Positions 3,584 through 32,083 of a DNA stretch of 42,962 bases are shown piece after piece; the stretch's first letter is position 1; every line of letters starts with the position of its first letter. The stretch comes from Paludibacteraceae bacterium (GTDB lineage: Bacteria; Bacteroidota; Bacteroidia; Bacteroidales; Paludibacteraceae): contig JAKSNJ010000012.1 in assembly GCA_024399965.1 (NCBI GenBank), positions 1 to 42,962 on the forward strand, given 5' to 3'. The notes under the pieces are model-generated. The model was not told where the DNA came from and searched no databases. It saw nothing but the letters and a program-made list of their open reading frames with translations. Position numbers and translations under genes: made by a program.

Positions 3584-3588
3584 AATAA

Positions 3589-10887: not shown

Positions 10888-10907
10888 TGTCTCGTTAATT
10901 TTGGTTA

Positions 10908-10939
10908 CAAAATTACTATTTTTTTTTGATATATGCAAA
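10908..10939 (-). promoter_or_regulatory. Promoter of the protease-glycosyltransferase-SpoIID operon
   Basis: On the minus strand TTTG (10939-10936), a 20-nt spacer and TAATTTTG (10915-10908) fit the Bacteroidetes consensus. The leader is only about 15 nt before the ATG at 10887. Confidence 0.75.
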
Positions 10940-11410: not shown

Positions 11411-14400
11411 TTATTTATTTACTTTCATAAATTGACCTTGCGCATTGTACATTCTGTTGTTACGAATAATCATCACGTGATTGTTCATCATTACCTTGCG
11501 TGCGCCCTCTTCGGGATTGTAGATGAGATACAGATCCGTAGCCGTTGACTTAGGCATTACCATTGCCAAACGACGTGGAGCAGGAGCACCGGCTTCAACG
11601 TAGGACTCCGTTGGAACTTCGTCTAACTTGATGTATGCACGATTAGCAGGTACACCGGCATCTTTTGCCATCGGCTGAATCTTAGTGCCATAAACGCCGT
11701 ACCAAGCGTAGTCAGCAGGACAGAAATCATCCGCGAATACGCCATAGAATCCACGTGCAGCAGTGCCGGAGATGGGGTCAAGTGCTTGTTCTGAACCTTC
11801 CATAAATTGGATAGTAGCGTCCGTAGCACAGAACAGATATGCCTGACCTGCATTCAGTTTCTCTCCGTCATCTACTTTGTTGAAGTACATTTCGTGTGCG
11901 CCTTCGTCCTTGTAATCTGCTTGATAGAAGGTAGCACCTGTGTATGCCACAACATCTTTCTGCCAGCAAACCGTACCGTAACTACCTACCGTCAAGTTCT
12001 CACGAACGGTAACAAAGGGCTTCATATAGATGCCTATTTCCTGTTGTGGGTTTGTATAGGTCTTGAAGCGAGGATTGCTTGTGTTGTAATAGATGATATT
12101 ACTACCACTTGCAATCTCAGCAACACCTTCCGTAATGGTAATAGTCCAAACGGTAGCTTCATCAGCATTTTCAGAAAGAGCAATGTCTGAATTATTGGAG
12201 ATAATGTATTTACCATTCTCATCCATCAATTTCCAACCGCTTTCCACTTTCTTCAATGTAATTTCGGAAGCGTTAGCCGTTTTCATGGTTTTGTCGGCAT
12301 ATTCGAGGTCAGAACCCTCATCATTAGAACGATAAGCATCAAGATACTTGCTATTGAATCCTTGGTTAACGGCATAGATTGGTTTTGCTTCTGTTCCAAA
12401 GACTGCACCTAAGATAATGGCGGCACCATCATTCAAGTCATTCACATCTTCCACAAGAACATAATCGGCAACAACTGGAGCGACAACAGTAACATTAAAC
12501 TCTGCATCATCTTTAACCTCACCACTCTTGGTTTGTACCGTAGCCGTGATGGTAACGGTTTGTTCGCCAAGTTCAGTAAAGGAAGTAGGATTAGCTGACC
12601 AAACGATACCTTCGGTGATAGGAGCACTTGTGTTATCAGAATAGTGTCCCAAAACAGAAAGACCATTATACCTAACGCTCTTACCTTGGAAGCATTTAGA
12701 GGTCAAAGTTCCTTGAATCTCAATAGAAGTCAATGCAGCAGCAGGAGTGAAGCCGGCTTTGTAGAGAGTAATAGCATTACCTGTACTGGAACCATAGCAA
12801 GCCCAACCACTATTGTCGTTATTACGCAGATACTTATTGTTACTATCTGATGATGCTTGAGAACGTCCTAAATTCTCAAACGTATAAACGTCTTTTTCTT
12901 CATCATAAGTAATAGTCCACTTAGCCATATTATCTGTGCAAGCTTCCAAGAGTTGCGCTTGGTTTTTTGTACTTGTTCCGGCAGCATATTTATTATTTGC
13001 CAAGTTTTGGATTGTCCAATAGTCTCCACTCTTAGCAATATGCCATACATAAGTCTCTACTTCCGTAGTGATAACATTATTGATAATCTCAGGATCATCT
13101 GTAGCAGCCACATTGGCAAGGCGGTTACTACTTATAGTATTGTTCATGAAATAATACTTACCATCAGCTTTGAAGATATAGTCACCTTCTCTAATTGCTC
13201 CATTGTACAAACCATATTTAGGAGCCGTGTACTCTTCAATCGTAATATCACAAGTTGCAGAGAGTTCGTTGCCGTCCTTATCATCTACCTTAACGGTGAT
13301 AGTAGCAGTTCCAACGGTTGCATCAGGAGCAACGGTAACGATAGCCGACTTCTTATCTTGGCTCGGAACTACAGTTACATCCGTATTGTCCGAACTCCAT
13401 GCAAGATTATTAAGAATCGTGGCATTGGCAGGCATGAAAGTGGCCTCCAAATCTAAGGACTTAGACTGTTTAACCGTAGCTGTGGGTATACTCATACTAA
13501 TCTCCGTCGGATAGATTTCAGGAGCGGTATATTCGATATTTGTTGACCATGCATAATTAGAACCGAAATCAATCTCCCAAACAGAACCGCCATCGTAATA
13601 CTTCCAAGTACCGGTGATATAGTCACCCTTAGAGGAGATCAATCCACCCTCTTGCCAATCATTGAGAGTTGCAGAAGGAGTGCCACCGCTATAGAGCTCA
13701 ATATTCGCGCCGTTCTTACCAATTACATTTACATACACGCCTGTGCGTTTATCGCTGCTATTTGTGTAGAAACCGGTAATCTCAACATCCGAGAAGGCAA
13801 CCTTTACAGAAGTGTTTGTAGGAATATCTTCTGCCACCAAGTCAGAGAGGTTCATGTATTTAACATTGATTGTATAAGAAGTTGTAACTTCCTTCTTATC
13901 TTGACCTTCGCCTTCAGAATAGGTAATAGTAATAGTCTCTTGTCCTTTATTCGCCAAGGTTGGAGTTGAGAACTGGCAAGCATTAGTCACATTGCTTGTT
14001 GTAGCATTAGTATAAGTTGCTGTTACCACAATACCTTCGTGATTAAAGTTACGTCCTACAAAGAAATCTTTTTTAGAAGCCTCTGTAGTGATTTCTATCT
14101 TGCTGAGTTCTACTTTCGCGCCAACGGTCAGGCCGCTGATAGACTTGGTTTCTTTTACATCTTGGTTTCCTGTCTTAACATTATTCAATGTAGCAGTTGC
14201 AGTAGCATTTATTTGATTTTCGGTAAGAATAATCTCTGTCCAAGCAACATCTTCTGTTACATCTTCCATGTGAGGATTTTGTTCTGTGTTGTCGCTATAA
14301 ACACCCTTTACAGTTAGACCTGTAAAGTCAAGTTTCTGACCAGCGGTGTAGTTCTTGTTAGTTACATCGCCTGTGATTTTAAGTGATGTAATCTTAGCAG

Positions 14401-17400
14401 GAGCGGTGTAAGAAGCCCAATCCCAGTTAGTTGGCATGAGTTCCCAAGTGCCTTTATAATCTTTCCAAGTACCATCAACTACTGTACCAGACACTTTACC
14501 GCCAACTTCCCAATCTGAAGGAGAGTTTTGGCAATAAACTTCAATCTTCTTATCACCTACCATAGTAAAGAAGCCATTGACATAACTGCCAGAGGTTGCA
14601 AGGGACTCAATCACTTCATCGGTTAGGATTACCGTAACCTCTCTACCAGCAGTAGTTGGAGCACCTTCGTCAACAAGTTCTTCCAAGGTATAAGCCCAAT
14701 CGAGGGTGTAGGTCTTGGTAACAGTTTCACTTGTACGGTCATCTACTTTAGCATAAGCACTGATTTTGTAAGTGCCACGTTTGCTAAGCACAATTTCTTC
14801 CTCATATAGAGTCTCTGCACCATCGTTGATAGTGTAGTAGATGTCTCCTTCGGTAGCGGTCAGTTCTATAGATTGCTTGCTAGTAAATGTGCCACCATCG
14901 GGGTCGAATGTCGGAGCAGCCACAGCCGCTTGGCAAATGGTGCAATAGTTGGAATAAGTGGGCTCACCTGCAGCTTTTACAACAACATCATCCAAGAAGA
15001 AACGGTTTTTGCTTGCTTGCGCAGCGGCAATAGTAATCTGTGGATTTTCAGTAGCATCGGTAATTACAATCTCATAGGATGTAAAGGCGGCATCTGCTAA
15101 TGTTATGCTTGTAGGAGTTACCTTACCACTTGTTGTAGTGATATTAAGTGTTTTTGCATCGCCACTCCATGCTCCGGCACGGAAAGTTAATGTGGCTTTA
15201 CCCGTAAACTCTAATGCAGGAGTCTGGGCAGAACCAGCAGCAGAACTCGAACCAAATTTTGCACATTGATTAGCGGCATTCCCTTTCGTAAATGTCCAAC
15301 CTGTAATTGACGAAGGAAGTGTTGCACTTGCAATAGAGCCACTCCATTTTTCATCATTTCCGCCTGTTCCCTCGCAAGCATCAAAGTTCTCTGAGAAAAT
15401 TGTTTGTGCCGTTCCCTCTGTCTTTTTTGCATAAACGGCATAGATGGTCTTTGCCAAAACAGCAGGATTGGTGAAGGTATAAGTTTCACCTAACAGAGTT
15501 ACTTGATCTTTACCGACTTCGCCTTCTATTGGGTTTTCGCTCCAACCAACAAATACTTTACCCTCGCAAGCTTGGATAGAAGTAGTTGGCAGAGTGATAG
15601 CCGTATTCAGTTTACCATCTTTAGTACTTGTACTTCCATTCTCGCTGAGAGTGAGAACAACAAAAGCATAATCACAAACAATAGTTACTTCGATATTGCC
15701 ATTGAAACCATCATTAGGATTGATAACCAATTCACCATCTGTAAATGTATATTCAGTAGCGGCAAGTTCAACACCACCCATTGTTACCTCAATAGCAGCA
15801 GCAGTCCAAACATAGCCGGCAGCCAAATCAAAGTTCAGTGTTGCGGAAGTTGCTTCGAGAGCAATGTTTTCCGGATTCCCTGCATCAGCAGTACAACCGG
15901 TAAGGTCATACGCAATAGAGTATTGTGCTGTGGTTTCCCATTGTGCATACAAAGTAGCATTTTCATCTTTTGCCCATTTATCATCTACAATCCACCCTGT
16001 CACATTACCAGCAAAAGTACCATCAATATTGAGCACCTTATCACCATTCTCACTTAAGGTATAATAACCTAACAAGTTGTGTCCTGCCCATGCTTCAACA
16101 GGTGAGAAATCACCATCTGCAATGCTTGTTGCATCATAGGTTATTTGTGCTAAGCCATTTTCACTACTACCATTCTTGTCTAATGTAATGTCAAGAACTT
16201 TGGCAGTCCATTGAGCTGTTAAGGTAATGTTCTTTGAGATATTAGGAATGGTTGCCTCATCGGCATAACTATTATCGTCTTGATCTTTCCAACCTGTGAA
16301 ATCATAACCCTTCTTAACAAAGGCGTTAGCAGGAAGTGTTTCGCTTGAGTTGGGCTCAATTCCTTCAATAGCATCCATAGAACCGGAAGTAGCACCATTG
16401 CCATCAAATTCAATCGAATAGGTAATAGCAGCGGCTGTTCCAATTAATTCTATATCATCTAAGCGAGTATTATTACTCGTTGAATTAGAGAATGTAAGAG
16501 CTATACTTTCAGTCTTAGCAGGCACGGTAATTGTGCAAGTATATGTCTTTCCACTTACTAACGAAATGTCACTAACCTCAACACCTTCTGTGGAAGATGA
16601 TACGGACAATTTATTATTATTGGCTTTAAAAGTCAGAATATAGGGACCTGTAGAACCAAGCAAGGAAATAGAAGAATTAGTTAAGGAACCACCGGACTTA
16701 CTAACCAACAATTCAGGAGAAGTACCTCCGGCCGATGTTTCATTATATAACTTTGTAGTAGAACCTCCATTTACCAAAGTATATCCATCTGTCTTTTCGC
16801 TAGACCAATCCTCGCTCCATAATACTTTTTCGTTTGGATTCGTAACGTTGATAGTATATTTAGCAGAAGACTCTGCATAAGTGTCGTTACCAGCATACGT
16901 AGCGGTGATATCCGTTGTACCTTTTGCGATAATAGTGATTGCACCAGTATTTGCATCAACCGAAGCCACCGCAGGAACACTACTGGAATAAGATATCATA
17001 GGACTTGTAACAGAAGTTGCACCTGCAGAAACAGTAGCGGTCTTAGTCTCAAACGTTCCACCAATTTCTGCATCAAAAGTTTTGTTATCTACATTAGCAC
17101 CGAATGTTGTGGTAGTTTCGGTTTTGGAAGGAGCATCGCCAACCTCGGTTGAATAATTCAATTTTACATATTTAGCACGCAATACGTCTGCTGAGTTGGG
17201 AATTGCATATGTAATCCTGAATGTTGCTATCTTCTTTGGTTCATTAGGTAAATCAACTACAATGGCAGATTTATATGCAGTCTCACTACTAGTAAGGCTA
17301 GTAAATGTTGATGATGCTGTTGAAAGGACTGCGTTTGCGTTATCAAGGAGATCTACGGTCACAGTAACGCTTTTGGTTCCTTTCCAAGTACCAAAGGTAC

Positions 17401-17659
17401 CGCACGAAACCTCAACACTGCATTTTGAGCACAAAATCTCGTCTCCAAATAAGTTTTTCGCAGTTGTAGAAATTGTTTCTCCATCTTTTAATTTGAGATA
17501 ATTGGCTACTGCTGATGTTGAGGCATTTACACTCCACCCAGTTGGCACTGTAGTTCCAAAGGTATAAACGACATTTATATAATCTGCCGCCATCAGGTTT
17601 ACACTCGCTACCATCGCAACGAGCGCGAGGAGCCATTTGAATTTTTTTCTCATAAGCAT
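11411..17659 (-). CDS. 2082-aa secreted repeat protein (InlB-B, Big_3, BIG2 and CHB_HEX-like domains)
   Basis: A signal peptide (FKWLLALVAMVASVNLMAA) begins this large modular surface protein. In approximate order: an Ig-like BIG2 unit (184-275), three Listeria-Bacteroides repeats ending in AQW/AVYA (410-486, 489-577, 665-747), a chitobiase C-terminal-like unit (914-989), two Big_3-type units (1090-1266), a BIG2 unit with WSSDN (1385-1476), another Big_3 unit (1640-1726), and a C-terminal RNNRMYNAQGQF motif of the short T9SS type. No enzymatic domain was recognised, so adhesion or surface-layer function is inferred. The codons for MRKKFK at 17653 are an alternative start. It lies 62 nt after the KilA-N gene without a promoter of its own that I can see, so co-transcription is likely. 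Confidence 0.85.
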   Translation of the reverse strand: MLMRKKFKWLLALVAMVASVNLMAADYINVVYTFGTTVPTGWSVNASTSAVANYLKLKDGETISTTAKNLFGDEILCSKCSVEVSCGTFGTWKGTKSVTVTVDLLDNANAVLSTASSTFTSLTSSETAYKSAIVVDLPNEPKKIATFRITYAIPNSADVLRAKYVKLNYSTEVGDAPSKTETTTTFGANVDNKTFDAEIGGTFETKTATVSAGATSVTSPMISYSSSVPAVASVDANTGAITIIAKGTTDITATYAGNDTYAESSAKYTINVTNPNEKVLWSEDWSSEKTDGYTLVNGGSTTKLYNETSAGGTSPELLVSKSGGSLTNSSISLLGSTGPYILTFKANNNKLSVSSSTEGVEVSDISLVSGKTYTCTITVPAKTESIALTFSNSTSNNTRLDDIELIGTAAAITYSIEFDGNGATSGSMDAIEGIEPNSSETLPANAFVKKGYDFTGWKDQDDNSYADEATIPNISKNITLTAQWTAKVLDITLDKNGSSENGLAQITYDATSIADGDFSPVEAWAGHNLLGYYTLSENGDKVLNIDGTFAGNVTGWIVDDKWAKDENATLYAQWETTAQYSIAYDLTGCTADAGNPENIALEATSATLNFDLAAGYVWTAAAIEVTMGGVELAATEYTFTDGELVINPNDGFNGNIEVTIVCDYAFVVLTLSENGSTSTKDGKLNTAITLPTTSIQACEGKVFVGWSENPIEGEVGKDQVTLLGETYTFTNPAVLAKTIYAVYAKKTEGTAQTIFSENFDACEGTGGNDEKWSGSIASATLPSSITGWTFTKGNAANQCAKFGSSSAAGSAQTPALEFTGKATLTFRAGAWSGDAKTLNITTTSGKVTPTSITLADAAFTSYEIVITDATENPQITIAAAQASKNRFFLDDVVVKAAGEPTYSNYCTICQAAVAAPTFDPDGGTFTSKQSIELTATEGDIYYTINDGAETLYEEEIVLSKRGTYKISAYAKVDDRTSETVTKTYTLDWAYTLEELVDEGAPTTAGREVTVILTDEVIESLATSGSYVNGFFTMVGDKKIEVYCQNSPSDWEVGGKVSGTVVDGTWKDYKGTWELMPTNWDWASYTAPAKITSLKITGDVTNKNYTAGQKLDFTGLTVKGVYSDNTEQNPHMEDVTEDVAWTEIILTENQINATATATLNNVKTGNQDVKETKSISGLTVGAKVELSKIEITTEASKKDFFVGRNFNHEGIVVTATYTNATTSNVTNACQFSTPTLANKGQETITITYSEGEGQDKKEVTTSYTINVKYMNLSDLVAEDIPTNTSVKVAFSDVEITGFYTNSSDKRTGVYVNVIGKNGANIELYSGGTPSATLNDWQEGGLISSKGDYITGTWKYYDGGSVWEIDFGSNYAWSTNIEYTAPEIYPTEISMSIPTATVKQSKSLDLEATFMPANATILNNLAWSSDNTDVTVVPSQDKKSAIVTVAPDATVGTATITVKVDDKDGNELSATCDITIEEYTAPKYGLYNGAIREGDYIFKADGKYYFMNNTISSNRLANVAATDDPEIINNVITTEVETYVWHIAKSGDYWTIQNLANNKYAAGTSTKNQAQLLEACTDNMAKWTITYDEEKDVYTFENLGRSQASSDSNNKYLRNNDNSGWACYGSSTGNAITLYKAGFTPAAALTSIEIQGTLTSKCFQGKSVRYNGLSVLGHYSDNTSAPITEGIVWSANPTSFTELGEQTVTITATVQTKSGEVKDDAEFNVTVVAPVVADYVLVEDVNDLNDGAAIILGAVFGTEAKPIYAVNQGFNSKYLDAYRSNDEGSDLEYADKTMKTANASEITLKKVESGWKLMDENGKYIISNNSDIALSENADEATVWTITITEGVAEIASGSNIIYYNTSNPRFKTYTNPQQEIGIYMKPFVTVRENLTVGSYGTVCWQKDVVAYTGATFYQADYKDEGAHEMYFNKVDDGEKLNAGQAYLFCATDATIQFMEGSEQALDPISGTAARGFYGVFADDFCPADYAWYGVYGTKIQPMAKDAGVPANRAYIKLDEVPTESYVEAGAPAPRRLAMVMPKSTATDLYLIYNPEEGARKVMMNNHVMIIRNNRMYNAQGQFMKVNK

Positions 17660-17721: not shown

Positions 17722-18576
17722 TTATGAGGGGGTTAATTGTTTAACATCGGGTAAAGCTCCCATATTCATTGGTTCTAATGCTCGCAACTGCATTACTGCC
17801 ACTTTGCGTAACTCATGGATGCGCTGTGACTGAGATAAACCTTGCGAAATAAGTATTGCATTATAACTCTCTATGTTTGCTAATACCAATAGTTGTTGCA
17901 AAGAGGCATAATCCCGAATATTCCCCTTTTTATTAGGATTATTCTCTCTCCACTGTTTTGCCGTTTGACCCCACACAACCACATTTAACAAATCTGCTTC
18001 ATCTGCATATACATAAGATGCTTGCTCTTTGGTCAATTCAGGAGGTAATAACAATTTTTGAATAGCATCTGTATGAACTTTATAGTTAAGTTTGGATATT
18101 TCTCGGTGTAGATTCCATGACAAAGATAATCTTGAGTTCTCATCAAACTTCAACCGTTGATAATCTTTCATCAAGTACAACTTAAACTCAGCAGATATCC
18201 ATGAAGCAAATTCCATCGCAATATCGCTATGTGCATACGTTCCACCACCATAGCGTCCTGCCTTACTTATTATCCCTTTTGCAAAAGTTTCTTCAATCCA
18301 TTTAGTAGGAGTCATCACAAAGCGATTTGTTCCTGCCTCCATTTTAACCGCCTCGAATTGCACACGGTTAAAATCTACATTATGCAGCATTTCCCACAAC
18401 CCAAGAAACTCAATCGTATCACGATTACGCATCCAGTTCTGAATAATAAAACGTGGGTCGTCTGCATTACGATATTTGGCAATATCTGTAAGTGATATAT
18501 ATTCGTTTTGAAAGTCCTCCGTATAAATCGACACTTCCAAACCTTTTACATTCAATATGTCTTTTTTAATAACCAT
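17722..18576 (-). CDS. KilA-N domain protein
   Basis: The 284-residue protein has the KilA-N DNA-binding-type domain (about residues 5-130): YISLTDIAKY, NWMRNRDTIEFLGLWE, TPTKWIEETFAKGIISKAG, the glycine-rich RYGGGTYAH and FASWISAEFKLYLMKDYQRLK. The C-terminal half (LNYKVHTDAIQ, YADEADLLNVVVWGQTAKQW, GNIRDYA, QLLVLANIESYNA) matches the usual bacterial chromosomal form of this family. Such proteins occur in phages and bacteria; their cellular role is not established. Unusually it stands first in an operon with a giant surface protein. An upstream ATG at 18648 would lie inside the leader hairpin; the ATG at 18576 (MVIKKD) is preferred. It may regulate the locus or be a captured mobile gene; neither is shown. 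Confidence 0.85.
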   Translation of the reverse strand: MVIKKDILNVKGLEVSIYTEDFQNEYISLTDIAKYRNADDPRFIIQNWMRNRDTIEFLGLWEMLHNVDFNRVQFEAVKMEAGTNRFVMTPTKWIEETFAKGIISKAGRYGGGTYAHSDIAMEFASWISAEFKLYLMKDYQRLKFDENSRLSLSWNLHREISKLNYKVHTDAIQKLLLPPELTKEQASYVYADEADLLNVVVWGQTAKQWRENNPNKKGNIRDYASLQQLLVLANIESYNAILISQGLSQSQRIHELRKVAVMQLRALEPMNMGALPDVKQLTPS

Positions 18577-18636
18577 TACCTTATTTTGCTTACTTATGAA
18601 ACTCAACTTCCACATAGAGGACCCAATATGCAATAA

Positions 18637-18668
18637 AATAGGCGCCATCCTTGCGGTTGGTGCCTATT
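18637..18668 (-). promoter_or_regulatory. Leader hairpin before the KilA-N gene, possible attenuator
   Basis: On the minus strand AATAGGCACC pairs with GGCGCCTATT across a 12-nt loop, followed by TTATTG. The hairpin and the preceding TTATCATAGGGGTAA closely match the leader hairpin of the 1503-aa gene (31859-31890). It lies about 115 nt after the expected transcript start. The T-tract is poor, so termination here would be weak or conditional. Confidence 0.5.
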
Positions 18669-18789
18669 ACCCCTATGATAAAGATAAGTCATTCTCTAAG
18701 TCATAAATACGTGTTATCATAACGCACTATATTTCACGAAAATCGGGAGTACAAATTCCAATATTCCAATGTTTCAATAATTTCGACTA

Positions 18790-18821
18790 CAAAGGTATAA
18801 AATATATTTTATATTTGCAAA
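18790..18821 (-). promoter_or_regulatory. Promoter of the KilA-N/2082-aa operon
   Basis: On the minus strand TTTG (18821-18818), a 20-nt spacer and TACCTTTG (18797-18790) match the Bacteroidetes consensus closely. The leader to the KilA-N start is about 205 nt, which leaves room for the conserved hairpin. Confidence 0.8.
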
Positions 18822-19359: not shown

Positions 19360-22300
19360 TTATTTCAATGTGTTTAGATTTTTACCTACACCATCATATA
19401 CTTTTCCGTTCGGATGAATGATGTACAGATGTTCGTCATAAACCACCTTCTGAGGATTAGCCCACGTATTGTGGTGCAAGCCATTCAGCAGCGAGGTAGG
19501 AGTAGCAGCCCCCTTCATGACGATGACTAACTCAAAGCGGGAGTTGAAGGTGCCGACTTCGGTATCGAACAGATAGTTCTCAGTCAGCAGGTCAGCCACG
19601 GTTGCGCCGTTGTCTAACAGGAAGATATGTTCTACCTGACTATAGTCGGTGTACGTATCGTCCAGCGCGAATGTATATTTGCCCGAAGCAGGTGCCTTAT
19701 AGCCCATGGGGATAAGGTCCTTGACTTGATCCGCAGATATAGCAATCTGAGCCAACTCATCTTGTTTATCACCAACAAGTGTATATACCTTAGTGGCAGC
19801 GGTTGCACCAAACATTTTGGCGTTATCACCCGGAATGTCGTATTCCGCCGTGAAGGTATCTGCCACTTTGAAGTAGGTAATATCTGTCTGCTCGTTACCG
19901 GTGAGGCGTATGCTGAACTTAGCCGAGCGTCCGTCAGTTGCCATCATACGGCGCGGAGCATTCTGACGATTAGCCAGTGCGAAGTTCATGGTACCGCCGG
20001 TAGCCACTTGCAGGAAGAAGTGCTTGAAGGGCAACAACTCGGTATTAACAACCGGACCTTGGTAGAAGTCCTCACCATCGTCGGTCGGGATATAAACGAA
20101 GTCGTATTCGGTCTCACCCACCATAATGGATTTTGCGCCTTTCAGTCCAGCCATGTACGGGTTAGCCATGAGATTCCAACCCCAATCGTATTTACCGGTA
20201 CTCTCGTGAGCCGTTACGGAAGCAGACTTGGTGCCTTCGGTTGCAGCTTCAGAGAAGTTGGCTACCATTGGGAAGTCAAGAATGACATACGGATATTTCT
20301 TGAATCGCGGTTGAGCAGCCACCGTGTAACCGATACCGGCGGTAAGTGTACCCGAAGTGATGTCAGTCCATGTGGAAGCGTCTTGTGTATCGCGACGGTG
20401 ACCGTTAGCACGAGAATCGCCATTGTAGGTTTCCAAAATAATTGTGCCACCATTTCTGCCTATCTTAGCCCAAGCATCGTTGTCAAGTGCATCTTCGCGA
20501 GTTATGTCGGCTACAGCCACGTCGTACGGGAAGGAAACTTGGTACATCTGCTCGCCATCTACACGCATACGGTAGAGGATAGTCTCAGCAGCATTGGTGA
20601 GCGTACCCTTGAGCGAAAGTTGCGGTACACCGTATTTGTTTTCGATGCCGGCTATTTCGTCTATACCGCCGAAGAAGATTAAGCTATCTACCGTGAGGTT
20701 TATCTCTTCCGGCACAACAACTTTGGAGCTCGGATAGATAGCGAGATTGCCTAAGGCCTTGCTGGCATCTACGGTCAGTACACCTCCGTCGCGAACAATG
20801 ACATCGGCATTGTCGGTCAGGTCAGAGGCATTGGCTGCTGAGGTGATGATTGCCGGAACGGTGAGTACAGAGATGTATTTCTTGTCGGCTGTAGTCATTT
20901 GCATCACCAGTGTCTGACCGGTAGCGGCAACGAGGTCAAAGGCGGAGCCGCCCAGTTCGTAGAGGTTGTAATCCAGCGCCGTAGTGTTGGCACGACGGGA
21001 GAAGACCTCTATGTCGTCATCACGCGTTTCGCCATTGATGGTGAGTGTGATGTCGGAGAGTTTGAACGGCACGTGGAAGAGAATCTTGTTGCTGTACCAC
21101 TCGTCAACTGCCAGTGTATGCGGTTCAGCCACAGGGAGGAAGTAAACGACATTCGTACCATACGAAGCATACATACCAAAGTCGGCACCATACATAGCCA
21201 ACGTGAAATTGTTGTTCACATTGCCCATAGTGTATGTTGCAAAGCCGGTACTATCCGTTAAGTTCAGTATCCAAGCATACGGGTCATTTGCACCGGAAAC
21301 AGAAGTAGCCCAGTTGCGAATGCCATGGTTATCATTTGCTGAAGCCCAAAGGTGTCCCTGTTTGTATGCACTTTGGAAGAGAACTTTGTTTTTATCTTCA
21401 TTATATGTTCTCAAACTATAGAGCAATGTATCCGAAGCCATTGCCATTCCGTCTTGAACTTCAATAGGTACTCCCGCCCATGCCTTACTCTCGGTCATAT
21501 TGGCCTGCAGGGCATACCACTGCTTATCGCGGTATTCGGCGATAACGAATTGGTCAGGCAGAGAGCGACCGAGAAGATCAAACTTCTGTGTAGCCATTAC
21601 CTTGCTATTATTGAGCAATTCTATTATCAACTGATAATGCGAAATCTTGTTACCATCCTTAGGAGAATACGTAATAGTGAATTCATGATTATAACTACCC
21701 GAAACATAGCGTACATCCCAGTTATTATCTTCTATGTTATACGAAGTATTGCATACACGGAACTCACTATGGCTGCGACTGGTTTCACCAGAGGTGCCAC
21801 TATAGATGATATCGTTGTCTATATCTTTGTACGAGAAGCGGAGGTGGGTAACCGTACCCAAACTCTGACTCTCGAGTTTGATAACAGAAGAACCTACCGT
21901 TACGTCTTTAGCGGAGGTCAATGCTACCGGTGCATCCAGCGTCAATTCTCCAATCCATACAGCGTAGTAATGGCGGTCTCCATCAATTTCGGATATTTGG
22001 GTAGATGTACCAACAACAACCATATCTTCAGCATCCTTATCCAAAGTCCACCCTACTAAGGTAGATCCTGTACGCGTAAAGAGGTCATCAGCAGGCGTTG
22101 TAGCCGTAGTGAGATCGGTGTACGTGATATAATCCGTACCGTCACCGCCATTGGGGCTGTAGATTAACTTATATAACGGACTTGGGGTCGTCTGACGATA
22201 GATGTAACCTGTTCCACCGGCATTGACTTTCTTATAAACTGCGTAGTAGGTTGTCGGCGTAGCCGGAGCATCTGTTTCGGCAGTTACATAAGTCGGAGCC

Positions 22301-25300
22301 GTCGTTTTATAATCCGTGTCAAAGACTGTTGCTGTCCAGCCGTCGAAAACATAGAGGTTTTCGGCGAAGGAAGCGGGTTGCGTAGCAGGCAGGACGAGTT
22401 TGCCGTTCTCATCAGGAGCCGTAGTTGTATTCCACGGCTCAGATGCCGAATAGCGTTCTTTCCAAGTTATGATAGGACGGACATCTGCTGCATCTGCCCG
22501 TACACTATGTGACAGAATATAATCATCACCCAACTCGTATTTGGTACCCTTAATCGTTAATGAATACAAGTGATACCCTTGCGGAGCGTAGTCATTTATT
22601 GTTTTTGCTTGTCCAACATTAGCACCCTCGTATGTAGCATAAGACGTTACTGATTTATCTAACACATACGAAATGGTAGCTTCACTTGCCATCGTGCAGT
22701 CGGTTGAGTAATCAGAGTACCAAACGGCACGGGTGGCGGTAGTGTAGGACATTTTGGTGATGATGGCATATTTGCCAGCAGTTGAGTGTTGGGTTACACC
22801 AAATTTCACATAGTAGTCGCCTTGGGTTAGCTCTATGGCATCTAAGATGTGCGTTGTTGTATTATCAGACAACAATGTAACATTATCTGCTGTAATCTTG
22901 GTCCATTCGCTACCATTTGTTGAAATCATGACATAGTAACCGATAGCAGCACCATTGGTAATATAGTCAAACGAAATGGACTTGAGGTCTTTAATTTTGG
23001 CAGTTGTGAATGATGTACCTCCCTCAATTGCGTTCAGTTTGATACCTTTATATTCAGTGCTACTAATAGTAACCTTTTCGGCTTCCGATTTAATTGACAT
23101 ATCATCTTCCAAGGTCTGTTCCCCTGTAATCTTACCACCATTGATGGATGCATAAATAGCGTAGAGGGTGGTCGGTTCGGTAAACTCTTCGGTAGCGAGG
23201 TCAACGAATTCGGGTTTGCTATCTTCCTCAACGGGTGTTGTCTGGTTGGTACGGCTCCATCCCATGAAGACACGTACCTCGCTGCAAGAAGCAGGATCGG
23301 CATGACTGACTTTGCCCTCGTCGGTAACTACATCGTCCGTCGTAATGTCATCATCTTGCATATACGAGAAGGTAACAACAGGACGGCAATCCGTAAGCCA
23401 AGAGATAGGATCCGGTTCTGTATAGCGATAAATAGAGGCCGCTATTCCTGAACCCGGCTTATAAAAACGCCAAGTTTTAGTATTCAAGTCAGAATAGAAT
23501 CTCAGACCATTATTGGCATTGTCAGCAATCGTGACCTGACCATCTTCGTTGATAGAGATAGTATTCTTGAAATCATCCGTTGCACTAAATTTGAAGCCAT
23601 TCGAGTTTTCTGCTTGTGAACCGGTAATATAATACCCACTTGCCGTTTTGACACTATATGTGCCATCATTATTAGCCGTCAGCGTTAAAGCATAGGAATT
23701 ATTGTCAGCCGTTACAGCGTATGTACCATCTGCTTCTTTTTGCAATGTAACACCTGAGTTACCATTTAATTCAGAACCAGCAAGACTACCATTAAAGCAT
23801 CTGTAATCATCATCAGCCACTTTAGCAATCACCAAATACTTACCATTCCAATTGGTTTCAGGAGCTTCGGTAACTTGGATGTATTTAGGTTCACCGTTCA
23901 GTTTAGCCCAGACGGCATAGAAGGTGGTGTTGTCGGTGATGGCGACTGATGTACCGGCAGGAATGAGGTTGTCGCCGGTAGGAGCGGTAGCCGTTTGAGT
24001 GAACGGTGTCTTAGACCAACCCAAGAAGGTCTCGTAACCGTTATTCTCGCAGTAAGCCATCTTCTCTGCATCGTAATCGGGCAGTATAACAGATTCGCCG
24101 CTATATACATCCTGATTCATACTCGGTATAAGTGTATTAGCCGAACTGAACTGAACGAGATAAGAAGCATCTTTGTTCCACTTAATGGTCATCACTACAT
24201 TGCCCGTGACGGTGTTGATATTCCATTCGGTTTTGTTAGTAACCTTTCTGCCACTGGCACCCTCAATGGTATATTTGTCATAGGTGTAATGTTCGTTAGG
24301 TGCAGTAGCCGTAACGTGTGCGCCGTCGATTGTTACATTGTCGCCTATGTACTGCTCACCATTGACGGTTTGGTTAACCGTTAATGTATAAACATTAACC
24401 GTAATGTCAACTGTTTGACCTCCGTAGGTAACCTGTATGGTTTGTTCGCCTGTTTCGGACAAGGTAGATTGGTTGAAACTAAAGTCCGCAGCATGTTCGC
24501 TGTAAGCCACATCTACAGGGTCACCGAAACTATACGTAGCGGTAATAACCAATCCGTCGGGACGGAATGTCTCGTTCTGCACATAGTTGAGCGAAGTAGG
24601 ATCTGTAGTAACGGCTATGCTATTTAAGGTATTCGCCGTAGTAGTGAACGAGCCGTTAGCCACATTGCTGTAATCGCAATGAGAATCATCGCCCTTTGCG
24701 CGCACGCTGTAATTATATAAGGTGCCCGGTGTCAGCGCGGTAAAGGTGTGTGAGGTAGCGGTACCAACCGAGGTCCACTCACCGTCGCCCAGACGCACTT
24801 CGTAGTAGGCGGCGTCGGTTACTGTGTTCCAGTTGATAGTTGCACCGGTGTAAGATACATCTGTCGGGGCATTTAATGTCAGCTCATCTAACGGCGTGCA
24901 GCAAGTGGTGATGAAGTTGGAGTAAGAGGCAGCAGTTCCCTCAACCACAACGACGAACTTTCGGAAGCCCATACCCTCTGTATATAGATAGAACTGAGAG
25001 AATTTTTGGCTTTCAGTGGGAGTAATTACCACCTCTTGAACTTCTGGATTTGTTGTAACTGCTTTTTTGATACCCATATCACTCACAGTAGGTTGGTGGG
25101 TGGTATTATCAGAACGGAAAATAATATTTCGTGTTTCACTAGCCGTTTGGCGGGCATAAATGGTGACAGATTTTACATTTCCTTCAAATTCTGGTGATTG
25201 GATATAATAATTGTCCGCGTGATTCTTTACTGACCAGAATTTTTCACCAGAATTGTCAAATCCGCTAAATACTCCTTGCCATGCAGCAGATTGGTCGTCT

Positions 25301-27195
25301 AAGAAATTACGAGGAGCATATCCACTTAATGCTGAACCAGATTGAGGCACATCCATAGTATGAGTTACATCAGCTGAACCTTGCTCACCTTCTGCCCAGA
25401 GAGCGAAGTAAGTGGTTTCTGATTCAGAGGTGATGACCGTTGTTGTTTCTAACATATCGGGTTGCTCATCAGTTTTGTCGGTGATTTCGGTAGCTGTCCA
25501 ACCGATAAAGGTTGTACTGGTTTCATCACAAGGTTCTACATCATCCGATGTGGGCAGTTCGCCAATGGCTTCGCCGACATAGACTTTTCGCGAGTCACCC
25601 ACTTGCGTACCATTATTAAGGAAGGTAATGGTCTTGTATGCATCTTCTGCAAAACTATACGACAAGGTTACATTACCGGCAGGCATATTGAATGTTTTAG
25701 TTGCCAAAATATCGACTGCTTCCTGTTCGCCGACCTGATAGGTCAGAGTGGCAGGAGAGAAGTGGGTTTTACCTGTCATTATGACAATAACCGTAGCATT
25801 ATAGTTGACATTGACAGAGCCGGTAGAGTTGCCATTAACGGTGAAGCTGTTTCCATCAATAGAAGGAGTAAAGGTTACTGTATAGGCATTAACTTGCCAA
25901 ACGGCGTAGAGTGTGCAACCTTCAGAGAGGGTCACTTGTGCTTCGTCCTCATAAACGACCGTTGCGCCGGCAGGATCGGTATCCCAGCCAAGGAAGGTGT
26001 AACCTGTCTTGGTGAAGGTACATTTTTTAAGATTCGTTGCTGTATTGGACGGCATAGACTGGTTAGTCATTTCCCCTTCTCCACCCTTGGCATCGAAGGC
26101 AACGCTGATATTGCCGTTAACGGTGATGGTGTTAGAAACGGCTTGGTTTTCGCAGTAGTCCACATCGCCTTCTTTAGAGGCAGCCCAAGTAACCGTAATA
26201 AATGCTGTACCGGCACCTTGCGGATGAATCGTACCGTCTGCATCAACTGTCAGAACGGCGGTGTTGCTGGATTCATACGAAGCCGTGCCATGAGTAGTAC
26301 CTGTGATAGAGGGTGCAACTCCTGCGCCACCGGCATTAAGGGGAGTGTCATAACTTACCGTAGGCGCATCCCAAGAGGTGCAACATTGGGTGACATAGTT
26401 GCCATATTGGATAGCACCAACAGTAATTGTTACATCGTCATCTTGTGCGCAATAGCCATTGGTCAAATCTTGGTGTGCGGTTACTTTATAGGTACCCGTT
26501 GCGGTGGCAGAGAAAACGCCATTTTCGACCTTACCGGTAGAAGGAGTAACCTTGTAAGTAATTGCTCCGCCATTACCAACTGTTGGAGTGATTGTAGCGG
26601 TCTTATTGAGAGCAATTTCTGTTTGAGAAGCAGAGATAGAAAGAGGTGTAGTCGGAGCGTTGCAATCCGGCTCTTTTTTATAGAGTTGAACATATTTATA
26701 ATCACTCCCGTCTGACTTACCAGTGTAACATGCAAAACGCGGGCTACTAACATTCCACCATATCACACGATTTTCATCATTAGCATTTTTAATAGTGGCA
26801 TTTCCATTTGTATCAAAAGTCACAAACCAAGAGGAATTTTTAGCAACAGATGTTGCTACAACATCTAACGAATTACCACTATTCCAGCGGAGGTAATTGC
26901 TACCTGTTTTGAATGAGAAGGAGTTAGTTTCGCTGCCAGCAACAACTTCCAATACATATTCGCCGGCAATAGAAGTCTCATAATTTGTTCCTATTCCATA
27001 CTTTGTGGATGTTGTTGAAATACTTGTTAATTCATTATTTGTTGCTTCGCACACCAAAACAATTTCATCTCCTGCTTTAAGAGATGTTACTTTGGTGTAA
27101 GTAGCTCCCCATACATTAACACTAAATACGGTCAGCACGAGAAGTGCCATTATTGACTTGAAATTTTTCATCTTGCTAAAAGTTTTATAGTTCAT
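19360..27195 (-). CDS. 2611-aa secreted repeat protein (InlB-B, FN3, Big_3 and Ig-like domains)
   Basis: The largest gene of the window encodes a modular surface protein. The signal peptide is MKNFKSIMALLVLTVFSVNVWG, starting at the second Met (27171); the first at 27195 is the alternative. In approximate order: a lectin- or trefoil-like N-terminal unit, Ig-like units (160-345), Listeria-Bacteroides repeats with LGWDTDP and IGWTATE (360-435, 518-603), a fibronectin type III unit (768-852), a Big_3 unit (855-935), further Listeria-Bacteroides repeats up to about 1748, and a long C-terminal part. The C-terminus HLYIIHPNGKVYDGVGK resembles a short T9SS signal. Cys-rich linkers of the YGNYVTQCC and YSNFITTCC type recur. 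It begins 13 nt after the 1503-aa gene, so the two form one operon. No catalytic domain was recognised. Confidence 0.85.
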   Translation of the reverse strand: MNYKTFSKMKNFKSIMALLVLTVFSVNVWGATYTKVTSLKAGDEIVLVCEATNNELTSISTTSTKYGIGTNYETSIAGEYVLEVVAGSETNSFSFKTGSNYLRWNSGNSLDVVATSVAKNSSWFVTFDTNGNATIKNANDENRVIWWNVSSPRFACYTGKSDGSDYKYVQLYKKEPDCNAPTTPLSISASQTEIALNKTATITPTVGNGGAITYKVTPSTGKVENGVFSATATGTYKVTAHQDLTNGYCAQDDDVTITVGAIQYGNYVTQCCTSWDAPTVSYDTPLNAGGAGVAPSITGTTHGTASYESSNTAVLTVDADGTIHPQGAGTAFITVTWAASKEGDVDYCENQAVSNTITVNGNISVAFDAKGGEGEMTNQSMPSNTATNLKKCTFTKTGYTFLGWDTDPAGATVVYEDEAQVTLSEGCTLYAVWQVNAYTVTFTPSIDGNSFTVNGNSTGSVNVNYNATVIVIMTGKTHFSPATLTYQVGEQEAVDILATKTFNMPAGNVTLSYSFAEDAYKTITFLNNGTQVGDSRKVYVGEAIGELPTSDDVEPCDETSTTFIGWTATEITDKTDEQPDMLETTTVITSESETTYFALWAEGEQGSADVTHTMDVPQSGSALSGYAPRNFLDDQSAAWQGVFSGFDNSGEKFWSVKNHADNYYIQSPEFEGNVKSVTIYARQTASETRNIIFRSDNTTHQPTVSDMGIKKAVTTNPEVQEVVITPTESQKFSQFYLYTEGMGFRKFVVVVEGTAASYSNFITTCCTPLDELTLNAPTDVSYTGATINWNTVTDAAYYEVRLGDGEWTSVGTATSHTFTALTPGTLYNYSVRAKGDDSHCDYSNVANGSFTTTANTLNSIAVTTDPTSLNYVQNETFRPDGLVITATYSFGDPVDVAYSEHAADFSFNQSTLSETGEQTIQVTYGGQTVDITVNVYTLTVNQTVNGEQYIGDNVTIDGAHVTATAPNEHYTYDKYTIEGASGRKVTNKTEWNINTVTGNVVMTIKWNKDASYLVQFSSANTLIPSMNQDVYSGESVILPDYDAEKMAYCENNGYETFLGWSKTPFTQTATAPTGDNLIPAGTSVAITDNTTFYAVWAKLNGEPKYIQVTEAPETNWNGKYLVIAKVADDDYRCFNGSLAGSELNGNSGVTLQKEADGTYAVTADNNSYALTLTANNDGTYSVKTASGYYITGSQAENSNGFKFSATDDFKNTISINEDGQVTIADNANNGLRFYSDLNTKTWRFYKPGSGIAASIYRYTEPDPISWLTDCRPVVTFSYMQDDDITTDDVVTDEGKVSHADPASCSEVRVFMGWSRTNQTTPVEEDSKPEFVDLATEEFTEPTTLYAIYASINGGKITGEQTLEDDMSIKSEAEKVTISSTEYKGIKLNAIEGGTSFTTAKIKDLKSISFDYITNGAAIGYYVMISTNGSEWTKITADNVTLLSDNTTTHILDAIELTQGDYYVKFGVTQHSTAGKYAIITKMSYTTATRAVWYSDYSTDCTMASEATISYVLDKSVTSYATYEGANVGQAKTINDYAPQGYHLYSLTIKGTKYELGDDYILSHSVRADAADVRPIITWKERYSASEPWNTTTAPDENGKLVLPATQPASFAENLYVFDGWTATVFDTDYKTTAPTYVTAETDAPATPTTYYAVYKKVNAGGTGYIYRQTTPSPLYKLIYSPNGGDGTDYITYTDLTTATTPADDLFTRTGSTLVGWTLDKDAEDMVVVGTSTQISEIDGDRHYYAVWIGELTLDAPVALTSAKDVTVGSSVIKLESQSLGTVTHLRFSYKDIDNDIIYSGTSGETSRSHSEFRVCNTSYNIEDNNWDVRYVSGSYNHEFTITYSPKDGNKISHYQLIIELLNNSKVMATQKFDLLGRSLPDQFVIAEYRDKQWYALQANMTESKAWAGVPIEVQDGMAMASDTLLYSLRTYNEDKNKVLFQSAYKQGHLWASANDNHGIRNWATSVSGANDPYAWILNLTDSTGFATYTMGNVNNNFTLAMYGADFGMYASYGTNVVYFLPVAEPHTLAVDEWYSNKILFHVPFKLSDITLTINGETRDDDIEVFSRRANTTALDYNLYELGGSAFDLVAATGQTLVMQMTTADKKYISVLTVPAIITSAANASDLTDNADVIVRDGGVLTVDASKALGNLAIYPSSKVVVPEEINLTVDSLIFFGGIDEIAGIENKYGVPQLSLKGTLTNAAETILYRMRVDGEQMYQVSFPYDVAVADITREDALDNDAWAKIGRNGGTIILETYNGDSRANGHRRDTQDASTWTDITSGTLTAGIGYTVAAQPRFKKYPYVILDFPMVANFSEAATEGTKSASVTAHESTGKYDWGWNLMANPYMAGLKGAKSIMVGETEYDFVYIPTDDGEDFYQGPVVNTELLPFKHFFLQVATGGTMNFALANRQNAPRRMMATDGRSAKFSIRLTGNEQTDITYFKVADTFTAEYDIPGDNAKMFGATAATKVYTLVGDKQDELAQIAISADQVKDLIPMGYKAPASGKYTFALDDTYTDYSQVEHIFLLDNGATVADLLTENYLFDTEVGTFNSRFELVIVMKGAATPTSLLNGLHHNTWANPQKVVYDEHLYIIHPNGKVYDGVGKNLNTLK

Positions 27196-27207: not shown

Positions 27208-30200
27208 TTAAAGTTCTTCTCCCCAAACGGCGTGATACGTAATATCTGTAACCGGTGCTTTCTCCGCTGACTGAGTAACTAACTCATTCGGTTTAGAAAT
27301 ATCCTTAGTCCACCCAACAAAGTGGTAGTGGTCCGTCACACAATCTCCCGTAGGAGGTGTACGCTCTTCATCTGTAATAGTTGGGAACTCGATTGCGTCA
27401 CCTACATACTCTTGATAACTGCTATTATTACCATGCAATGCATCAGAGAAAGTGATTGTAACTTTGGGGTCTTCTGTGAAAGTAGCCGATATGGTCACAT
27501 TGTCATCCGGCATCGTGAAGGACTTGGTTGCTTTAACATCTGCACCATTAACCGTGAGGGTGGTTAGTGTGTAGTGTGTGGCGGGCGTTGCGGTAATTGT
27601 TATTGATGTGCCATAAGCCACATTGGTTGTTGCCGAAGGAGAGATTGAAACAATACCTCCGGTTGTGGGTGACAGCGTGATGTTGTGCTTGTTAGGCGTC
27701 CATTGAGCAGTTAGGGTTGCTGTGGCAAACTCTTTGTCCCAGTTCCTTGCACTTATACCATCTGCGTTGTAGTAAGTGATATTGTTATGTGTATATCCGG
27801 TGAACTGGTAGTGTTCGCGTTGAGGCATTGTGGCTGGGGGCATCGGTTGATTCCAAGTGGCGGTTACGTGGTCGGTTCCGGGTGTTGTAGCATCCGGTTG
27901 GTTGAAGGTGATGGTAGTGGTCTTGACTTGCCACTTGGCGTAAAGCGTTTCATCTTTGGTGATAGCGTAAGGGAATGTGACAGCATCACCATCGAAAGTG
28001 TCGTTGTCGTACCAACCTACCAAATTATAACCTGTTTTAGTCGGTGCAGGTTTTGTATTAATTGGTGTATTTTTCGTTACATCAATAACTGAAGAAACAT
28101 TAGAGCCGCCATTGCTATTATAATCCACCGTGAAGAGGCGTTGCCAAGTGGCTGTAAGAGTTACATTGGCGGTCGGGTTAGAAAGGGTGTAAGAAAGATT
28201 TGAACCACTTGGTGTTGCACCTACCACATCAGAAATACCATTGAATTGATAGTGTGCTTGCTTGGTAAATGTCAACGTGTGAGTTTGCTCATTCCAATTG
28301 TAAGTATTGCCCGAAACGGATTCTTCGCCTACTCTATCTGTATAAACAGGATTAATCGTTACGGAATAAGCATTCACAGTATATTGAGCAGATTGCTCTT
28401 GATTATTGAATGTATATTTAACCGTCACAGTCTTTGCGCCGGCTGTGGTTAAGTCGGGGGTTGAGATTATTAAGGCGTTGTACTCTATCGGGAAAGTAAT
28501 ACCATCGTCCAAAGTAGCCGTAGCAGTCAAACCTGCAGAAGTAAATGTCTCACCTACAAAGTAAATCTTCTTCACATTGTCCGTATTCAAAGTAACCGAT
28601 GCCAAGGGTGAAGCAGAGGAATGAGTGATATAGTCGGTGAGAGATGTAACTCTTATTATAGTTGCTCGAATTTGGTTACTCGTAGATTTTATTTGCGTAG
28701 AAGTAGCATTAATGGATGTTATTGTTTGGGTTGTTCCACTTGTCGCAATAGAACCTGGATTTGCATTATTAGCCATATAGTCACTTCCCGAATATGTTAC
28801 TTCCATTGATGTAATCTTCGTGGGAGAAGTGATTTCAAAATAAGAATTTTTATCAACTGAGAAAGTGTATGGTTGGTTTTTTGTATAACGATTACTACCA
28901 GATCCATACAACTCCAAAATCACTCCTGTTGTATTTTCAGTCCATTTCCAATAAATTTCGTCTTCTGTACAATTACTTACATCTGCTGCATCAAACATAG
29001 TCACATTTCCTTTTGCCCAAACGGCATTGAGAATAAGTTCTTTTTCTACGACCTTAGTGGAAGTAACAGGTGTGGGGGCTTGGGGTTGCCAAGTGGTGAC
29101 TTCTTCCTCTGTCCAACCTACGAAGGTTTTACTGAAAGCATCTTTGGCATCAGTGGTGGTTAAGGTTGGTAGAGTGCCAATTGTTTTACCTTCTTGGATA
29201 GAGAGTTTCTTCTCTGTCAATTCATTGCCATTATTGTAGAACTTGACATCAAACATGGTCATTGTCCACTTGGCAAAAAGAGTAGTGTACCCTGCAACTT
29301 TATCCGTATCGAAGTCCCATTGGTTGGTGCAAGCGTCTTCTTTGAACCAACCGCCAAAGGTCCAACCGGTGATGGATTGTGTTTGAGGGTCAGTAACCGG
29401 GTCATTGTACCCAACCGTTTGGGTTGCAACCGGTGAGCCATGACCTTGCATAGCGAAGGTAACGGTATATTGGATAGTATAGGAAATAGAGTTTTCGGCA
29501 CTACTTTCGATACCATCTTTAGCAGCGATAGCCCTAATGGTCATTGTCTTAAAGACATTGATGGCTCCGGTATATTCTGTACTTAAAGTAGAAGGCGCAG
29601 TACCATCCGTAGTATAGTATATCTTTGCACCTTCGGTTACACAACTGAGTTCCACAGATTTAGCCCCTGTGTACGTTCCTGTTACAAGCGAGAAAGTGGG
29701 GGTCTCACATTTCAAAGGAGCGGTAACTACGAGTGTAACCACATTGGAGGGTAACGACTTATCACAAGGACTTACTCCGTTCTTCAATAAGCAGCGGTAA
29801 TAAGTTGTACCTATTGTAGCTATAGATGGGGAATATGACGCACCCGTTGCGCTAGCGATATTTTCCCAATCTGTATTATTAGCTCTTGATTGCCATTGAT
29901 AAGTTGCCCATGACTCATTTTTCTCAACACTCAATGTAAGAGCATTAACATTTTGAACTCTTTCTATTGTCTGTTCAGTAAGATTGGTCTTAAATGTCGG
30001 CGTTGCGCAAGAGAAGGTAGCAGAAACGGTGACAGCAGAGGCAGGCATTGTGAACAAATATACTCCACCTTCTTCAATAATATCACTCGCGGCAACATTC
30101 GAAACCGTAGGAGTACCACTACTAACTTCGTAACCTACATTTGGAACTAATTTGAAAAAGACATCGGCACCTGCTGGTTGGTCGGCAATCGAATTACTCC

Positions 30201-31858: not shown

Positions 31859-31890
31859 AAAAAAACACCATCCTCGCGGAATGGTGCTTT
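31859..31890 (-). promoter_or_regulatory. Leader terminator-like hairpin before the 1503-aa gene, possible attenuator
   Basis: On the minus strand AAAGCACCAT pairs with ATGGTGTTT, and seven T follow, so this has the form of a rho-independent terminator. It stands between the promoter at 32052-32083 and the gene at 31719, with no second promoter seen. The stem, the loop (CCGCGAGG) and the upstream TTATCATAGGGTAA match the KilA-N leader. Regulated termination of the operon is inferred. Confidence 0.6.
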
Positions 31891-32051
31891 TACCCTATGA
31901 TAACTCACTATACAGCCATGCCTGACTATCTGATACAGATATCCACAAAGACAAAGCCGATGATAATGAAGTGTGTTTCATATTACGCAGTGATGTGCCA
32001 CTCAGCCACTTAGGGCATTAGCTGTTTATATACGTTTTTCAAATACGAGTG

Positions 32052-32083
32052 CAAAGGTACAACAAAAAATTTATATATGCAAA
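32052..32083 (-). promoter_or_regulatory. Promoter of the 1503/2611/136-aa operon
   Basis: On the minus strand TTTG (32083-32080), a 20-nt spacer and TACCTTTG (32059-32052) match the Bacteroidetes consensus. The preceding AAATAAA and following CATATAT are shared with the protease promoter. The leader is about 325 nt. Confidence 0.8.

Follow-up and report, generated by a model that had tools for sequence, protein, structure and literature searches.

A putative family of ribosome-controlled transcription attenuators ahead of giant surface-protein and phage-like genes in a genus of Paludibacteraceae

Attenuators of the amino-acid operons (trp, his and similar) place a leader open reading frame (ORF) ahead of a terminator. 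The trp attenuator is also described in PMC3894217, which deals with the pil1 leader of Streptococcus gallolyticus. There, a leader stop codon within or close to the hairpin lets the ribosome prevent the terminator from forming; a high share of highly piliated cells is found in isolates with a leader peptide that runs through the hairpin or stops just ahead of it, and the switch is driven by GCAGA repeats. In Bacteroides thetaiotaomicron, manual inspection of long 5' UTRs picked out short ORFs reminiscent of attenuation leader peptides, which were not validated (PMC7366714). A third point of reference is the multicopy small RNA FopS of Bacteroides, which has a single-stranded 5' seed, had short ORFs excluded and represses SusC-type mRNAs in trans, as described in PMC11697453.

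The present analysis concerns 42,962 nucleotides of a Paludibacteraceae bacterium (assembly GCA_024399965.1, contig JAKSNJ010000012.1, positions 1 to 42,962 of the forward strand; hereafter the window). An earlier note had placed two copies of a leader hairpin on its minus strand, and re-reading of the letters confirms both. Among the products of the genes concerned are giant repeat-rich surface proteins, which are costly and exposed. Behind leader 1 lie a KilA-N gene (17722..18576, minus strand; Pfam KilA-N, E 1.7e-17), whose start at 18576 is inferred from homologues, and then the gene of a 2082-aa giant protein (11411..17659, minus strand), which matches no Pfam family at the protein level and holds one Flg_new repeat in its frame by a genome search. 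Behind leader 2 lie the gene of a 1503-aa surface protein (27208..31719, minus strand) with Flg_new and CHB_HEX_C_1 domains, the start of which is backed by the similar N-terminus of its counterpart behind leader L161 of another species, and then that of a 2611-aa surface protein (19360..27195, minus strand). Both of these proteins carry Flg_new (Listeria-Bacteroides) repeats.

Each leader follows a match to the Bacteroides-type promoter consensus TTTG-N-TAnnTTTG, taken here from PMC7366714: TTTG...TATACCTTTG at 18790..18821 for leader 1 and TTTG...TGTACCTTTG at 32052..32083 for leader 2, both on the minus strand. No further TAnnTTTG lies in either promoter-to-gene interval, which agrees with the earlier claim that each copy sits between a good promoter and the first gene with no second promoter between. 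Ahead of copy 1, a strong terminator-like hairpin (18901-18876) stands behind the upstream operon. The best local alignment of leader 1 (215 nt) with leader 2 (336 nt) spans 38 columns, of which 32 are identical, 3 mismatched and 3 gapped, and its score of 40, against a shuffle mean of 18.3, is reached by 1 of 5000 shuffles (Gumbel fit p ~3e-6); the box and hairpin said to be common to both leaders are thus borne out. What is significantly alike is TTATCATAGGG(G)TAA with the GCACCA...CCGCRAGGATGG hairpin behind it, plus the promoter. Across the window there are two exact occurrences of the 11-mer TTATCATAGGG. Two patterns found no third copy in the assembly (1.66 Mb, 44 contigs, 83% complete), where the next match of a two-sequence covariance model scores 16.2 bits against 59.5 and 64.1 for the two copies.

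The exact 11-mer and the alignment place the shared box on the minus strand at 18667..18681 (TTATCATAGGGGTAA) and 31889..31903 (TTATCATAGGGTAAA). By folding, a terminator-like hairpin with a GCAA loop lies at 18637..18668 (minus strand) and a terminator hairpin with a GCGA loop, followed by a T run, at 31862..31891 (minus strand), the latter also marked by compensatory changes relative to L161. The T tract of the first is weak (TTATTGCA), which corrects the earlier description. Both stems contain mismatches or a bulge and reach -16.2 (copy 1) and -14.1 kcal/mol (copy 2) when folded alone; folded as a whole, the leaders show no significant gain over shuffles (z -0.99 for leader 1 and -1.66 for leader 2). 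No Rfam 15 family reaches its gathering score in the window and none comes near its cut-off in the two leaders, in keeping with the earlier note, which recognised none of the known riboswitch or attenuator families; a scan of ten loci with relatives (L231 and L257 not among them) returned one tRNA only.

A feature missed before is that the box forms the 3' end of a short ATG-ORF in each leader. Leader ORF 1 (MITRIYDLENDLSLS; 18673..18720, minus strand) has 15 codons and leader ORF 2 (MKHTSLSSALSLWISVSDSQAWLYSELS; 31895..31981, minus strand), which has a relative in L161, has 28; each ends with a TAG stop within the box, 4 nt (copy 1) and 3 nt (copy 2) ahead of the stem. Some ATG-ORF ends at the box TAG by chance in 27% (copy 1) and 43% (copy 2) of shuffled leaders, so the window ORFs alone prove little; one at least as long in that frame arises in 8.6% and 6.9%, respectively. 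A repeat search that does not report units of 1-3 bases found no direct repeat family inside either ORF. An antiterminator structure was rejected, since neither pairing examined is better than shuffles: the box pairs with upstream sequence equally well in 12.5% and 11.4% of them, and the leader with the 5' arm of the terminator in 45% and 54%.

The surroundings of the two leaders are rich in repeats. A 58-nt inverted repeat (11125-11182 and 31576-31633, 98% complementary) has its arms 20.4 kb apart and flanks nearly all of both giant-protein operons, one arm lying within the 5' end of the 1503-aa ORF; it is possibly an invertible segment or a dispersed repeat. We considered the leaders as a DNA-invertible site, given this repeat around the island, and set the idea aside because they lie outside its arms. 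Repeats of GTGCATTGTGCATTGTCAACCGTC are dispersed at 31546-31777, 32138-32169 and 37427-37458 and occur in other stretches of the same genome; some fall inside the translated N-terminus of the 1503-aa protein. An intergenic 130-nt repeat, 93% identical, is found at about 32182-32310, just upstream of promoter 2, and at 9721-9850 of another stretch (L149), and a 58-bp tandem repeat at 3433-3606 has two perfect copies and a third matching 71%. The window features at 9223-10938 and 32576-34423 are a C10 peptidase gene with a Spi inhibitor domain, downstream of the island, and a rho gene, which adjoins promoter 2 and is divergent from it. Homopolymer G or C tracts are of the kind that slips and so switches frames. 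By eye, runs of 8-10 G or C occur in the first codons of other giant surface genes of this genome (L144 12238, L146 11562, L150 7290), with one of the same kind in the leader of a giant surface gene (L147, about 480). A 231-column element, 69.7% identical between L144 12413-12641 and L146 11603-11818 (minus strand) and without an Rfam match, precedes two further giant surface genes in the same genome.

Relatives were sought by hairpin and by 5' region. The check proposed in the earlier note, a covariance model built from the two window hairpins, was run on 178 genomes of the genus (E up to 1) and 358 of the bacterial family (E up to 0.05) and brought up no relatives before surface genes. It matched in 18 of the 178 genus genomes, the bacterium's own included, with a next best score of 28.4 bits against 59.5 and 64.1, and in 7 of the 358 family genomes (E up to 0.05); the non-window matches are, by eye, ordinary 3' terminators behind other genes or coding stretches, and the model was discarded as a description of the leader family. 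A looser hairpin pattern fared likewise, its matches in 21 of 200 family genomes being chance by eye except for the window's own. Exact hairpin patterns gave a single match in genome_contigs, in a Flavonifractor record without leader context, and none in viral_contigs.

A survey of promoter-to-gene intervals covered 40 stretches around genus homologues of residues 1-673 of the 1503-aa protein, which are present in 50 of the 178 genus genomes, and ten stretches around Flg_new genes of the same genome as the window. Among 40 genes of at least 800 aa with upstream sequence, 14 have a promoter-like site and 3 of these a terminator-like hairpin (copy 2, L161 and L187). Of 236 other genes, 57 have a promoter, which in 14 cases is followed by a hairpin ahead of the gene, a number that includes some hairpins within coding sequence (by eye), two giants incomplete in their stretch (L192, L193) and two members of the leader family (L171, L195). 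At 3 of 14 giants with a promoter versus 14 of 57 other genes, giants show no enrichment of terminator-like hairpins as such, and most sampled giant surface genes lack the leader plan, a terminator-like hairpin lying between promoter and gene in 3 of the 40. In a smaller first survey, hairpins occupied 4 of 19 such intervals in the own genome and 3 of 23 in relatives.

The leader L161, from another species (G296), is 79.5% identical to copy 2 over 127 nt from the end of the promoter to the ORF. This similarity, together with an exact 17-mer and a predicted fold, delimits a conserved 5' element in leader 2, CGTATATAAACAGCTAA...TGGCACATCACTGCGTA (31982..32034, minus strand). The 17-mer, TGGCACATCACTGCGTA (31984-32000), lies just ahead of the ORF start and occurs exactly in 3 of 358 family genomes (the own, G296 and G050), always in such a leader, whereas its three one-mismatch matches all fall outside such leaders. 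Two viral_contigs entries that contain it share the same sequence, show no leader and were taken as chance; two further 5'-element patterns had no match in viral_contigs, nor did the copy-2 leader match phage and plasmid records. Searches with the 5' element added L191 and L187, which carry GACAGTAAACRGYTAA...CACACTACAGCTTATG (L187 also emerging from the hairpin survey), and L168, L171, L174, L175, L190 and L179, which carry GTACCAACRGYTAA(T)GACACTACTT (L171 likewise also from that survey).

Before longer contig samples were taken from relatives, the 521 kb examined around giant genes had yielded 12 members and the remaining 619 kb of examined DNA none. Contigs were then sampled from the own genome (398 kb), G165 (398 kb), G302 (238 kb), G216 (118 kb) and G322 (40 kb), those of the relatives being chosen where a member was already known on the contig or elsewhere in the same genome. 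The relatives' contigs contributed L231 and L257; the 398 kb of the own genome held no further member, and with the window and the sampled stretches about 35% of that genome was read directly. The family thus comprises 14 leaders, two in the window and 12 in 10 other genomes of the genus. Read from these sequences, what recurs in other species is the plan, made of a promoter, a conserved 5' element, a short ORF and a stop abutting a hairpin, and not the sequence of the hairpin. Hairpin sequence is accordingly a poor search key; relatives that escape the hairpin model are recovered through the 5' element and the ORF-to-hairpin geometry. The leader is not a property of KilA-N genes as such: homologues occur in 31 of 61 genus genomes, and their upstream regions, some incomplete, lack it by eye. 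The 5'-element profile detected nothing in the KilA-N upstream regions beyond a 21.6-bit match (L050) and the window's own copy. Three KilA-N homologues (L028, L052, L055) have a short motif of their own before the start codon, roughly CCGTC...GACGTTAAACAGGAGAAAG, unlike the leader studied here (by eye). A literature search found no paper describing this leader family.

The 5' element is predicted to be structured in most members. In eight leaders (L168, L171, L174, L175, L190, L179, L231 and L257), a stem surrounds a near-invariant 16-nt loop, CCAACRGYUAAGACAC (17 nt in L179). Across these eight, 92.2% of stem cells are paired, against 37.5-55.0% when slid; 4 of 8 pairs are changed on both sides, and the covariation score exceeds that of all 500 shuffles, having been not yet significant with six sequences. 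The predicted stem of L187 and L191 includes the ATG of the ORF wholly or partly, and for copy 2, L161 and L195 a stem is predicted that encloses the element of each leader. No clear 5' stem is predicted for copy 1, whose 5' part is hardly recognisable, at 22.9 bits though it is one of the 11 profile seeds; L050 and L177 score about the same (21.6 bits), have a promoter by eye only and were not counted as members. Membership of copy 1 rests on box, hairpin and ORF geometry and not on its 5' part. Two other roles were tried and dropped: mimicry of tRNA by the 5' element is not better than in shuffles, and the box as a small-RNA seed has 6 complementary matches in the genome, two of them the boxes themselves, versus 10 for a reversed control.

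The ORF stop lies within -10 to +20 nt of the hairpin start, a range set after the first values were seen, in 12 of 14 leaders versus 2 of 28 other frames (Fisher 6.6e-7). The offsets are -4 nt in copy 1, -3 in copy 2, -2 in L161, -6 in L191, -7 in L168, 0 in L171, -10 in L174, +6 in L175, +18 in L179, +1 in L190, +2 in L231 and +19 in L257; the exceptions are L195 (-14, with a four-codon ORF) and L187 (+126, the ORF reading far past the hairpin). For the eight members found by their 5' region rather than by the hairpin survey (L168, L174, L175, L179, L190, L191, L231, L257), the count is 8 of 8 versus 0 of 16 other frames. Without L175 and L257, whose hairpins have no T tract and were picked near the stop, the six with a T-rich tail give 6 of 6 versus 0 of 12.

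Two pairs of leaders carry a coding signal. The L171 and L174 peptides (MNKFSLYQYFASG and MNKTTVYQHFASG) share 9 of 13 residues (MNKxxxYQxFASG) with 5 synonymous changes, and their BLOSUM score of 50 in frame falls to 6 and 12 in the two others. The peptides of copy 2 and L161 (the latter MEQVFSHSAFSVWTSFLGTSSDMYSRISIA and a stop) are identical at 9 of 28 residues, a likeness equalled in none of 5000 codon shuffles, and score 41 in frame against 31 in frame +1. Among further pairs, L174/L190 gives p 0.014, and significance is not reached by L175/L190 (p 0.08) or L174/L175 (p 0.11). The terminator of L161 lies in the same place as that of copy 2 and keeps the GCGA loop and the TTTTTTTGTAGTGTT behind it, while the arms differ. 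Counted by hand among copy 1, copy 2 and L161, 5 of 10 stem positions from the loop are changed on both sides, and 2 of 30 stem cells are unpaired, both in copy 1.

The genes behind the leaders are of several kinds. Giant surface proteins follow copy 2, L161, L187 and L257, and KilA-N genes follow copy 1 and L179. A RhuM gene lies behind L195, one just under the Pfam cut-off behind L174, an ORF6N-like gene (by eye) behind L231, a DUF1016/YhcG nuclease behind L171, Bro-N behind L190 and an ATPase gene behind L168 and L175. Eight of the 14 leaders (copy 1, copy 2, L161, L187, L195, L171, L174 and L257) have no promoter-like site after the hairpin. The order of promoter, leader, terminator and gene, with no later promoter, is present by pattern in copy 1 (with its weak T tract), copy 2, L161, L187, L195, L171 and L174, and L257 has the same order with a hairpin that lacks a T tract. 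In L168, L175 and L190 a promoter-pattern match lies between hairpin and gene, L179 has a poorer one and L231 a TAnnTTTG site, and the 1 kb behind L191 holds no same-strand ORF of 70 aa or more, the next lying at 1029 nt with its own promoter. These six cases indicate that the unit can stand alone.

We consider each copy to be, with fair probability, a ribosome-controlled transcription attenuator. RNA polymerase would start at the Bacteroides-type promoter and, by default, halt at an intrinsic terminator, which lies roughly 150 nt further on in copy 1 and 190 nt in copy 2. The conserved 5' element stands just ahead of the start codon of the short ORF, and the stop of this ORF directly against the 5' arm of the predicted terminator. 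If the ORF is translated, a ribosome reaching or waiting at the stop would cover that arm, the terminator would not form and the operon would be transcribed; if it is left untranslated, transcription would stop early. The 5' element is the probable site at which translation of the ORF would come under the control of a signal, be it a protein, a second RNA or a small molecule. Translation, termination, antitermination by the ribosome and the signal itself are what we infer here from features read directly off the DNA, namely the match to the promoter pattern, the ORF/hairpin geometry, seen again in other species, the covariation of the 5' stem in one subfamily, the compensatory changes in the terminator and the conserved peptides of two pairs. 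For the 14 leaders together, the best reading would be a family of such attenuators before giant surface proteins and genes of the KilA-N, RhuM and DUF1016 type. The earlier proposal of a conditional terminator common to two surface-protein operons fits this evidence; the plan is found before giant surface genes (L161, L187, L257) and also before KilA-N, RhuM, ORF6N-like and DUF1016 genes.

The main rival is that the promoter, ORF and terminator form an autonomous transcript of ~150-200 nt, a paralogous small RNA or a small-peptide gene acting in trans, which often lies upstream of surface or phage-like genes that are themselves transcribed by leaky read-through or from their own promoters. 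The promoter matches behind the hairpin in L168, L175, L190 and, more poorly, L179, the TAnnTTTG site of L231 and the lack of a near same-strand gene behind L191 all suit such a unit, as do the T run of the copy 2 terminator and the likeness of peptides in some pairs; multicopy small RNAs of Bacteroides also consist of a 5' stretch and a terminator, FopS being an example (PMC11697453). We regard it as rather unlikely all the same. With no promoter-like site between hairpin and gene in eight of 14 leaders, large operons would have to depend on read-through; neither a small RNA nor a peptide gene needs its stop set against a hairpin; and the 5' part is a covarying stem-loop in eight members, with no Rfam match.

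That stem-loop, with its near-invariant loop, resembles a protein-binding site, and the box is the best conserved stretch between the window copies. Both would suit protein-controlled antitermination, in which recognition of the box or the 5' element by an antiterminator or another RNA-binding protein would directly suppress the terminator, with the ORF incidental. Such a model has no need of the stop position kept in 12 of 14 leaders, and a single NusG gene was found in the assembly (83% complete); we hold it to be improbable. More improbable still is that the window leaders are ordinary repeat copies without a regulatory role, produced when an intergenic segment with a terminator was duplicated locally in a genome full of repeats. 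The region is indeed rich in dispersed short repeats and the assembly yielded two copies only, but their likeness is confined to the promoter and the 38 columns of box and hairpin. A leader of another species is related to copy 2 (79.5% identity over 127 nt) and shows compensatory changes in its terminator, and in all another 12 leaders are built to this plan, two imperfectly.

If the attenuator reading is right, a leader-peptide attenuator with its own 5' stem-loop would be a concrete RNA switch for giant surface proteins and would link the giant surface genes to nearby genes of the KilA-N, RhuM and ORF6N type. A more ambitious version, which we offer tentatively and regard as open to considerable doubt, is that the leaders form a new family of RNA switches. 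A structured element with a near-invariant loop (CCAACRGYUAAGACAC, or AAACAGCUAA...GGCACAUCACUGCG) would sense a signal and gate translation of the leader peptide, the ribosome would decide on transcription of giant surface and phage-like genes (KilA-N, RhuM, ORF6N, DUF1016), and the module would have spread as a cassette before unrelated genes.

Among known systems, the trp and his attenuators share the leader ORF followed by a terminator; here the ORFs have no run of codons for a single amino acid (by eye), no biosynthetic genes lie directly downstream, no antiterminator pairing was found and the Rfam His_leader match reaches 18.6 bits against a cut-off of 49. As for UpxY-type antitermination by a NusG paralogue, the assembly, 83% complete, gives one NusG match only, so no specialised paralogue of that type is seen in it. 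FopS small RNAs are alike in being multicopy and in having a short transcript that ends in an intrinsic terminator, and differ from the present leaders, which have a covarying 5' stem-loop in eight members and an ORF running to the hairpin; the distinction is drawn from the published description of FopS. The short ORFs in the long 5' UTRs of B. thetaiotaomicron lie behind the same type of promoter; the leaders described here are likewise known from sequence alone and form a family whose geometry is conserved across species. A close counterpart is the pil1/pil3 attenuator of Streptococcus gallolyticus, which also combines a promoter, a leader peptide, a premature terminator and a surface-protein operon. 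The two window leader ORFs differ from it in containing no direct repeats, and the leaders differ in that the stop is already set against the hairpin, an extra conserved 5' element is present and the bacterium uses Bacteroides-type promoters. The design matches attenuators of the pil1 type, in which a ribosome at the leader stop covers the terminator, and by this analogy translation of the short ORFs would govern read-through in the leaders described here.
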